Assembly (NCBI GenBank): GCA_030427935.1
Contig: JAUICI010000015.1
Span: 1-37,860, forward strand
Length of the DNA: 37,860 nucleotides
Direction: 5' to 3'
Source of the DNA: Bacteroidia bacterium
GTDB lineage: Bacteria > Bacteroidota > Bacteroidia > Flavobacteriales_D > Crocinitomicaceae
Shown here: positions 1,613 to 3,532 of the stretch, piece after piece
Layout of the letters: every line of letters starts with the position of its first letter
How positions within the stretch are numbered: position 1 is the stretch's first letter
The notes under the pieces: generated by a model
The model's input: the letters and a program-made list of their open reading frames with translations, nothing else
What the model was told of the DNA's origin: nothing
Databases searched by the model: none
Position numbers and translations under genes: made by a program

Positions 1613-2506
1613 TTAGGCATCAAACAGGTCGGACGACAAATAGCGGTCTCCCCGATCACAAACAATGCTGACGATTACTCCTTTTTTCAATTCTTGAGCC
1701 AATTTCAAAGCAACAAAAGCCGCTCCACCAGAACTCATCCCGGCGAAAACCCCAGCTTCTACTGCCAATGCACGAGCCTGTTCCCTAGCCTGATCTTCTG
1801 AAACATCGATGATCTGATCCACTTTTGAGGCATTAAAAATTTCGGGCAAATATTCTTTTGGCCACCTTCGAATACCTGGGATTTTGGAATCTTCTGTGGG
1901 TTGAACCCCAACTATTTGAACCTTTTTATTCTTTTCTTTTAAAAAAGTTGAAGTCCCCATGATCGTTCCAGTAGTCCCCATTGCCGAGACAAAATGTGTG
2001 ACTTTACCTTTGGTGTCTTTCCAGATTTCCGGACCAGTTGACTTAAAATGTGCTTTCCAATTATCATTATTGGAAAATTGATTCAATAAAGTATAACCTT
2101 CTTCATCCGCCAATTTCATGGCAAAATCTCTTGCCCCTTCTATTCCTTTATTGGCATCGGTCAAAATAACATTTGCGCCATAAGCTCGCATTGTTTTCAC
2201 TCGTTCAATCGTAGAATTTTCGGGCATAACCAAAGTCATTTTAACCCCAAGTTGTGAGCCGATAAGGGCTAAAGCAATCCCAGTATTTCCGCTCGTAGCC
2301 TCTACTACTGTGTCTCCCTTTTTTAGTTCGTTTCTTTTTAAGGCCGATTGGATCATGTTTAATGCAGCACGATCTTTTACCGAACCACCGGGATTATTCC
2401 CCTCCAATTTGACATACCATTTTACTTTTCGATTTCCAGTTAAATGACTCAAATCCACCAAGGGGGTTTTCCCAATTTGCTCAATGATTCCTTTAGCTTG
2501 CGACAT
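1613..2506 (-). CDS. cysM: Cysteine synthase B (O-acetylserine sulfhydrylase)
   Basis: 297-aa PLP-dependent enzyme of fold type II that makes L-cysteine from O-acetyl-L-serine and sulfide (CysM enzymes can also use thiosulfate). Visible motifs: PLP lysine K44 in [10 protein letters not shown], the substrate-binding TSGNTG loop at 71-76, and the phosphate-binding GTTGT loop at about 177-181. Length and the short, ungapped sequence fit CysM rather than the longer CysK. The ATG start at 2506 lies inside the end of cysE (14-nt overlap), so the two are translationally coupled, pairing the serine acetyltransferase with the enzyme that consumes its product. Regulation is expected from the attenuator upstream of cysE. 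Confidence 0.95.
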
Positions 2507-3233
2507 TTTTCTTTTTAATTATGTTTTCATATTTATGGATCACATTCGAATAGGCAGGAACGGATTCCGTAATCCAAACATTGGCACCGATAGTACTATT
2601 CTCTCCAATAATTGTATCTCCTCCTAAAATAGTAGCATTTGCGTAAATAACGACATTATCTTCCACTGTGGGGTGTCTTTTCTTTCCAAGCATTCCCTTT
2701 GAAATATGAAATGCTCCTAGAGTCACTCCTTGATAAATCTTGACATTATTTTTTATGATTACCGTCTCTCCAATAACAGTTCCCGTCGCATGATCAATGA
2801 AAAATGAATCTCCAATTGTAGCTCCAGGATGAATATCCGTTCCGGTAACACTATGTGCATACTCTGTCATCATCCGTGGTAAAACTGGAACATCCAATTG
2901 ATACAAGACATGCGCTAACCGGTAAATCGATATTGCTTGAAAACCGGGATATGCCAAATACACCTCATCCAAAGACTTTGCTGCCGGATCATTCGCTTCA
3001 ATTGCTCGTGCATCCAAATCCAATTTCACTCGAACCTCATCTAATTGCTCAAAAAACCTTCCCCAAACTGTTTCTGCATCGGCTAAACCAAGTTTTTCAA
3101 AAACATTTAAGAAGTTTGATCGAACCTCATCATAATGATACTCTCGCTCAACCTCATCTTCAAACAAACCGTAAAATAGGTCTTCCGTTAATTCATCAAC
3201 TTCTCTTTTGACTCGCAAATTATACTTCTTCAT
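2493..3233 (-). CDS. cysE: Serine O-acetyltransferase
   Basis: 246-aa left-handed beta-helix acetyltransferase that converts L-serine and acetyl-CoA to O-acetylserine, the committed step of cysteine synthesis. The N-terminal helical part (residues 1-110) is followed by hexapeptide repeats from about residue 133 ([20 protein letters not shown] to PAYSNV). The catalytic-type Asp/His pair is visible at D147-H148 in [12 protein letters not shown]. The C-terminus (IIKKKNVAS) does not end in the Ile that docks into CysK in enterobacteria, so a classical cysteine synthase complex is not predicted. It is the first enzyme gene of the operon; its ATG lies about 120 nt downstream of the attenuator terminator and 16 nt downstream of a 10-bp hairpin. 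Confidence 0.93.
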
Positions 3234-3249
3234 ACTTTCCCATTAAACT

Positions 3250-3298
3250 AGCGCTCGTTTCCAACGAGTGCTAAAAATTCCAGGCGATTCAAACGCCC
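3250..3298. repeat. REP-like hairpins in the cysE 5' leader
   Basis: AGCGCTCGTT at 3250-3259 pairs with AACGAGTGCT at 3263-3272 around a 3-nt loop (10 bp with one wobble). Next to it, GGCG at 3283-3286 and CGCC at 3295-3298 form a second short dyad. Both lie in the transcribed leader between the attenuator and the cysE ATG. They look like a dispersed palindromic repeat rather than a terminator, since no U-tract follows on the minus strand. Confidence 0.6.
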
Positions 3299-3352
3299 CT
3301 AATAAAAATAAATACCAAACACTAAAGCAGTAAAAACAAAAAACACTTAAAC

Positions 3353-3384
3353 AAAAAAAAGCCCCTGATTTCTCAGAGGCTTTT
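3353..3384 (-). terminator. Intrinsic terminator of the cys attenuator
   Basis: Reading the minus strand, AGCCTCTGA (3381 to 3373), loop GAAA (3372 to 3369) and TCAGGGGCT (3368 to 3360) form a 9-bp stem with a single G-U wobble, extended by three A-U pairs, followed by an uninterrupted T-run to 3353. It lies 26 nt downstream of the stop codon of the Cys-rich leader peptide and upstream of cysE, on the same strand. Its 5' arm is also complementary to GGAGGCT inside the leader coding sequence (3432 to 3426), so the hairpin can be disrupted by an alternative pairing. Confidence 0.9.
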
Positions 3385-3410
3385 GATATATAATTAATCT
3401 TTTAAAAAAA

Positions 3411-3485
3411 TTAAATACAGTGCTTAGCCTCCGTTCGGGGGGAACAAAAACAAAGACAACATGTATTTAATTTTAAAGCGTTCAT
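3411..3485 (-). CDS. Cysteine-rich leader peptide of the cysE-cysM attenuator
   Basis: A 24-codon frame from ATG (3485) to TAA (3413-3411) that contains five UGU cysteine codons, at residues 9, 10, 12, 14 and 23; the cluster reads NTCCLCFCSP. The start codon lies about 18 nt downstream of a consensus promoter, so the RNA leader before it is very short. The sequence around the Ser-Pro codons (CCCCCC, 3442-3437), the Thr-Glu-Ala codons (GGAGGCT, 3432-3426) and the terminator 5' arm (AGCCTCT, 3381-3375) supplies segments 1, 2 and 3 of a classical attenuator. The inferred role is sensing charged tRNA-Cys by ribosome stalling, not making a functional peptide. It is too short for normal gene callers. 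The inference rests on sequence alone. Confidence 0.82.
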   Translation of the reverse strand: MNALKLNTCCLCFCSPRTEAKHCI

Positions 3486-3502
3486 TTCTACTTTCTTGGA
3501 GA

Positions 3503-3532
3503 CAAAGTTAATTCAATTTTTTTTCTTGTCAA
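3503..3532 (-). promoter_or_regulatory. Promoter of the cys leader/cysE operon
   Basis: On the minus strand, TTG (3532-3530, in GGGTTGAC) and TAACTTTG (3510-3503) are separated by exactly 19 nt. This matches the Bacteroidota -33/-7 consensus (TTG and TAnnTTTG) without mismatch. Transcription should begin a few bases before the leader ATG at 3485. Confidence 0.85.

Follow-up and report, generated by a model that had tools for sequence, protein, structure and literature searches.

Ribosome-mediated transcription attenuation is the classical mode of control of the trp, his and leu leaders of Proteobacteria. In these leaders a short ORF with codons for the product of the pathway is combined with antiterminator and terminator hairpins, and a stalled ribosome acts as the switch. 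Sulfur amino acid genes are also known to be under terminator-based control by S-box/SAM riboswitches and T-boxes. The Trp leader of Bacteroidota, Bacteroid-trp, is present in Rfam as RF01692 (PMC2864571), and a map of Flavobacterium psychrophilum reports that amino-acid operons are preceded by attenuators of the leader-peptide type, with no cysteine case named in its text (PMC9723704). Cysteine codons are found in mycobacteria, in which Cys-codon leader ORFs lie upstream of cys genes without obvious terminators (Seliverstov 2005, PMC1262725); attenuation by a leaderless polycysteine sORF in mycobacteria (Canestrari 2020) is cited as translational in PMC13236596. A described sensor for cysteine regulation in Bacteroidota was not found in the literature.

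The DNA analysed here (the window) is a stretch of 37,860 nucleotides from a bacterium of the Crocinitomicaceae (Bacteroidota; contig JAUICI010000015.1), in which a leader element precedes cysE and cysM (Table 1). On the strand of these genes, a sequence-only reading had recognised a promoter, an ORF of 24 codons (five of them UGU) and, after it, an intrinsic terminator. Re-reading of the window sequence confirmed all three, and the identities given to cysE and cysM were borne out by profile matches. The two genes lie on the leader strand downstream of the terminator, with cysM overlapping the end of cysE. Near the start of cysE the promoter is the sole exact match to the pattern. The distance from its -7 box to the leader ATG is 17 nt, from which a short 5' UTR is predicted, with a length of about 10 nt. 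The UGU codons of the leader are codons 9, 10, 12, 14 and 23; it contains no Trp codons, and its stop codon is separated from the terminator by 26 nt. At the Cys frequency of the window (0.85%), the probability of at least 5 Cys among 23 residues by chance is 1.3e-6. The window contains 301 ATG ORFs of 15–50 codons, four of which have a terminator downstream, and this leader alone is Cys-rich. At the gathering threshold no Rfam model matched the window, RF01692, the SAM riboswitch and the T-box included.

Table 1. Leader element and downstream genes in the window (roles in regulation are predicted)
Feature	Position	Strand	Basis or remark
Promoter TTG-N19-TAACTTTG, Bacteroidota primary-sigma type	3503..3532 (TTG 3532-3530, TAACTTTG 3510-3503)	-	exact TTG-N19-TAnnTTTG match
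Leader peptide ORF MNALKLNTCCLCFCSPRTEAKHCI, 24 codons	3411..3485	-	ORF reading; kept in congener
Putative regulatory Cys cluster UGU UGU CUU UGU UUU UGU (codons 9, 10, 12, 14)	3444..3461	-	sequence
Segment 1 UUUUUGUUC	3442..3450	-	pairs with 3436-3428; MFE fold; kept in congener
Segment 2 CGGAGGCU, within the ORF, after the Cys cluster and before the stop	3426..3433	-	
Segment 3 AGCCUCUG	3374..3381	-	partner: segment 2 (antiterminator) or segment 4 (terminator)
Intrinsic terminator stem-loop, 12 bp, loop GAAA, then U-run; 3' arm is segment 4	3357..3384	-	
cysE, serine O-acetyltransferase, putatively controlled gene 1	2493..3233	-	NF041874 EpsC above cut-off, TIGR01172 E = 1e-50
cysM, cysteine synthase B, putatively controlled gene 2	1613..2506	-	NF008735 and TIGR01138 above cut-off

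In the helix of segments 2 and 3, CGGAGGCT (3433-3426) is complementary to AGCCTCTG (3381-3374) over eight pairs, one of them G-U. The pairing GGAGGCT/AGCCTCT proposed earlier for these segments was right, and is one pair longer than proposed. The hairpin proposed for segments 1 and 2 had to be revised: such a hairpin exists, but CCCCCC is not the partner of segment 2. In the fold, UUUUUGUUC (3450-3442) pairs with GAACGGAGG (3436-3428) around a loop CCCCC. The rejected candidate, CCCCCC (3442-3437) with CGGAGG, makes an unclean helix with C-A and C-C mismatches. Segment 1 shares nucleotides with the third and the fourth Cys codon, and this position is where the partner of segment 2 should be. 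The folding energy of the window leader corresponds to z = -4.7.

It is very probable, judging from the sequence, that this element is a ribosome-mediated transcription attenuator specific for cysteine, sensing charged tRNA-Cys. Translation of the leader peptide would begin as soon as transcription had started from the promoter. When charged tRNA-Cys is scarce, the ribosome would stall at the UGU cluster and cover segment 1, leaving segment 2 free. Segment 2 would then pair with segment 3 ahead of the synthesis of segment 4, so that the terminator could not form and transcription would read through into cysE-cysM. When Cys is plentiful, the ribosome would reach the stop codon and partly cover segment 2, the hairpin of segments 3 and 4 would form, and transcription would end. 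With no translation, the 1:2 hairpin would leave segment 3 free, and termination would be the default.

Such an attenuator would differ from those of trp, his and leu in its cysteine specificity, in the position of segment 2 within the ORF and in its Bacteroidota promoter; the related units described below also occur in tandem and inside operons. With the Bacteroid-trp leader it has the phylum and the general layout in common, but that leader has Trp codons and trp genes. Mycobacterial polycysteine attenuators share the runs of Cys codons upstream of cys operons and cysteine as the signal. However, they are leaderless and lack an obvious terminator hairpin, whereas the window has a predicted 5' UTR, an intrinsic terminator and a predicted antiterminator. 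In contrast to S-box/SAM riboswitches and T-boxes, no aptamer or specifier domain was found in the window, and the predicted sensor is translation itself.

The sole other genome of the genus compared (G003) carries a unit upstream of cysE with a promoter, the peptide MNALKLNTCCLCFCSPRTEAKRCI and a terminator. Its promoter is of the TTG-N19 type, ends in TACCTTTG and is present at the corresponding place. All five UGU codons and segment 2 are kept, and the peptide differs by one residue. The terminator hairpin is present in both the window and the congener, unlike in the mycobacterial polycysteine ORFs. Alignment of the pair showed a conserved island bounded by the -33 box and the U-run. The sequence-only reading depended on conservation of the short ORF and its Cys codons in close relatives; the congener keeps both, with diverged flanks. 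Comparison of the ORFs (loci L015 and L063) gave 4 synonymous changes and 1 non-synonymous change, i.e. 4/5 synonymous versus 21% expected, counts that are small and mixed in other groups. One of the synonymous changes, from ACG to ACA in the congener, turns the G-U pair of the 2:3 helix into A-U and keeps the 1:2 hairpin paired (U-G to U-A). The window's own unit was found in this one congener only; at cysE of a neighbouring genus (G002) there was no unit, and a promoter lies directly before cysE.

Similar units (approximately 30 distinct sequences) were found in Bacteroidota, often in tandem. The genes downstream of them are cysE-cysM, cysteine synthase, sulfate-assimilation operons, metY, metB-like genes and metX, several being named by recognised sequence resemblance and a subset checked with profiles. 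Units of other genera and families, upstream of sulfur genes, follow a common order, with the Cys cluster first, then segment 2, the stop codon, 20–35 nt and the terminator. Outside the Cys/Met codons the peptides are poorly conserved between lineages. This equivalent layout with different sequences, together with exact complementarity, lends support to the attenuator function that had been proposed from the window alone.

Operon heads, reached via CysE and CysD, were scanned with a strict filter for short ORFs that contain a Cys/Met cluster and have a terminator downstream. Because cysE ends the cysDN operon in most of the family, the CysE-linked search missed most of the family's units, and CysD was followed instead. 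Sulfate-assimilation operons preceded by units were detected in family f1 and elsewhere in Bacteroidota, and with the strict filter at least 12 of the 60 CysD regions carry one. Two units in series are present in L103, L121 (F. limnosediminis), L133 (F. urocaniciphilum), L174 and L044. The genome of the window itself contains a second unit, MNTHFKYCCFCWMNCMKVPKRKWYVI with a terminator, between cysN and sir (sulfite reductase; L173 9268-9348). In L160, from another lineage, MINKLFCCACCCTP and a terminator immediately precede cysE and a gene for cysteine synthase. Within the first genome-contig set, CysE loci outside Bacteroidota (spirochaetes, planctomycetes and others) gave no convincing unit. 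Matches opposite to the sulfur-gene strand in the same set were weak and were rejected; the clear ones are on the operon strand.

A covariance model (R1) was built from six homologous units, with the terminator as its sole structure and without a Cys filter, and was run against 299 genomes from the order and 340 from the phylum. The strongest matches were again Cys/Met-rich leaders, on cysteine synthase, metY, metX and sir. Among them were MLFTLNTCCCCCPLKGGSLI before cysteine synthase (L235 and L236; gene family checked with profiles) and MMLFVCNMCCMMWKNPQSITIA before a cysE-cysteine synthase pair (L267 and L268; genes named by sequence resemblance). R1 also matched MNHSTKNMCCMCCMKPRTPEVICCGMF, MCCMMCRLIYANGIVI and MVSLQDQKHEKMIFNSVCMMCCMHQRKGV before metY, MKFTVCNMMSCKMPELSAETLL before a TonB-receptor-like gene, and Met-rich leaders before metB-like and metX genes (L133 and L265). 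Units were also detected in two genomes outside the class (L270 and L286). Matches weaker than approximately 1e-3 were unspecific (plain terminators, serS and trp leaders), so the R1 tally of 226 of the 299 genomes was not used. Trp leader units were detected by R1 in L121 (6286-6421, minus strand), L174 (2790-2927, minus strand) and L241 (Bacteroid-trp, or MKNLKLNNYWWWSTKHNVS), which suggests a general attenuator architecture common in the phylum.

In 19 dissimilar units, the duplex of the 3' half of the leader with the 5' arm of its own terminator averaged -12.1 kcal/mol, versus -8.6 kcal/mol for cross pairs (p = 6e-6). In a control set of 123 ordinary genes whose terminators are similarly spaced, the values were -7.4 (own) and -7.6 (cross; p = 0.85), and the duplex excess of the units over these gene ends was significant (p = 8e-11). 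Column-wise pair counting on A4 was dropped because rows were one or two bases out of register, and a register-free helix search was used instead. This search showed the antiterminator helix to vary on both sides between units (GAGGC/GCCTC, GCAGAG/CTCTGC, GCAGGGG/CCCCTGC, TGAGGAG/CTCCTCA, GCAAAGG/CCTTTGC and GAAGGAT/ATCCTTC), with the complementarity kept.

Masked folding was performed on the RNA up to but excluding segment 4, with the ribosome footprint masked at the values of E. coli. For the window, the predicted probability that segment 3 is captured was 0.23 when untranslated, 0.96-0.97 with the ribosome at the first Cys pair and 0.17 with the ribosome at the stop codon; the model thus agrees with the earlier supposition that a stall would free segment 2 and a ribosome at the stop would occlude it. 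Mean capture in 28 units was 0.83 untranslated, 0.94-0.96 stalled and 0.46 at the stop, and the stalled value exceeded the stop value in 26 of them. The corresponding means for control gene ends were 0.44, 0.42 and 0.36, and the switching pattern of the window occurred in 1 of the 123. In L054, L121b, L174b and L193 the mask at the stop codon leaves segment 3 unreleased, and the 2:3 pairing is weak in L044b and L193. Since most other units would, unlike the window, antiterminate when untranslated, the 1:2 hairpin seems to be a local refinement.

The codon content of the leaders differs between pathway classes (Kruskal p = 0.005). The mean of Cys/(Cys+Met) is 0.86 at cysE/cysM/cysK (n = 4), 0.54 over sulfate assimilation (n = 18) and metY (n = 5) together, and 0.12 at metB-like/metX (n = 4). 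The Met class differs from the shared class with p = 0.0009 and the Cys class with p = 0.03, the representatives being hand-picked, with 4 in the Cys class and one exception: the cysE leader of L267/L268 has Met besides Cys and departs from a Cys-only rule at cysE. A codon content that tracks the pathway in this way would be expected if the codons act as the sensor. It is likely that Bacteroidota possess a sulfur-amino-acid regulon governed by leader-peptide attenuation, in which the codons would be tuned to the branch: Cys at cysE-cysM; Cys and Met at sulfate assimilation, metY and the TonB-receptor-like gene; and Met at metB-like genes and metX. In such a regulon tandem Cys/Met units would act as logic gates, and the leader of the window would derive from a Cys/Met ancestor, MxxxxxNMCCMM.

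Control could also be exerted at translation, a stall in the Cys ORF opening the cysE start site and the hairpin being no working terminator, as has been proposed for the polycysteine ORFs of mycobacteria, where Cys-rich ORFs upstream of cys genes lack obvious terminators (PMC1262725). This appears very unlikely, given that every unit has a strong hairpin and T-run at a near-fixed distance and that the leader complements the 5' arm of the hairpin; moreover, the cysE start lies 123 nt beyond, across extra sequence found in the window and not in the congener. It is still less likely that the terminator serves as the expression platform of a riboswitch for SAM, cysteine or another sulfur compound, with the ORF incidental. 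SAM-II riboswitches do occur elsewhere in the phylum (e.g. L133), but the Rfam search of the window gave none, the space between promoter and terminator beyond the ORF leaves little room for an aptamer, and what the units share is an ORF with Cys/Met codons, segment 2 and a terminator, the remainder being variable.

The motif CCxCxC is in general metal-binding, and R1 also matches unrelated terminators; the short peptide or a small RNA might therefore have a function of its own (e.g. as a metal-binding Cys peptide) before an ordinary terminator, with cysE-cysM expressed from elsewhere. We give hardly any credence to this, as the peptide is poorly conserved apart from its Cys/Met codons, the genes downstream are sulfur genes and the complementarity of leader and terminator is specific; in addition, the pattern scan of the window found no second exact promoter between the terminator and cysE. 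A DNA-binding regulator of the Rrf2/CymR type could be the main cysteine sensor and the leader contribute little, since the sulfate operon is preceded by a gene of the Rrf2 family both in the genome of the window (L173 5462-5878) and in several relatives. This is very unlikely: no Rrf2 gene was seen adjoining cysE-cysM in the window, and layers of regulator and leader can coexist.

No publication was found that describes terminator-bearing Cys or Cys/Met leaders in Bacteroidota, with the reservation that the case table of the F. psychrophilum map (PMC9723704) may list a cys or met case; nor was an Rfam family found for them. Judged by the literature searched, which was mostly open-access, a cysteine-specific attenuator with a terminator may be new for Bacteroidota. 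The leader would provide a concrete candidate for the cysteine sensor of Bacteroidota, in the form of a switch addressable by single codon changes. One codon-based logic would link cysE-cysM, sulfate reduction, methionine synthesis and perhaps the uptake of sulfur compounds. The leader would also be a transcription-terminating counterpart of the polycysteine attenuators known from mycobacteria, which would suggest convergence in the use of Cys codons.

Several other elements were observed. The Rrf2-family gene of L173 (G000:C69) adjoins the cysH-cysD-cysN-sir operon, and the same arrangement is present in L052, L193 and L207. Its nearest named NCBIfam equivalog by E-value is CymR, below cut-off, and its product is a candidate for a second layer of cysteine control. 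In genus g76 of family f17 (L269, L275, L277-L280, L282 and L283), Cys/Met units immediately precede either metY or a TonB-dependent-receptor-like gene; the receptor-like gene is a candidate for the import of a sulfur amino acid or a sulfur compound. R1 matches in L292 (G000:C222, 1339-1463) and L255 are terminator-like elements upstream of seryl-tRNA synthetase-like genes, with no obvious Ser-rich leader ORF. From approximately position 2718, L294 (G690:C34) contains two leaders in tandem, MKNLFTVCMPCNCCAKCGEVAAMV and MKIVTNITANTTTTKCCMMCCMQNPAESRMLCCCCCC, the latter with six Cys at its end. The gene downstream of them is uroporphyrin-III methyltransferase-like, a function that supplies siroheme to sulfite reductase. 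Finally, the gap between terminator and cysE in the window contains about 70-80 nt (3236-3305, minus strand) that are absent from the congener. Parts of this sequence are repeated at two other places in the genome (89% and 77% identity) and it contains the inverted repeat GCACTCGTTGGAAACGAGCGC; it is possibly a REP-like mobile repeat within the operon leader.
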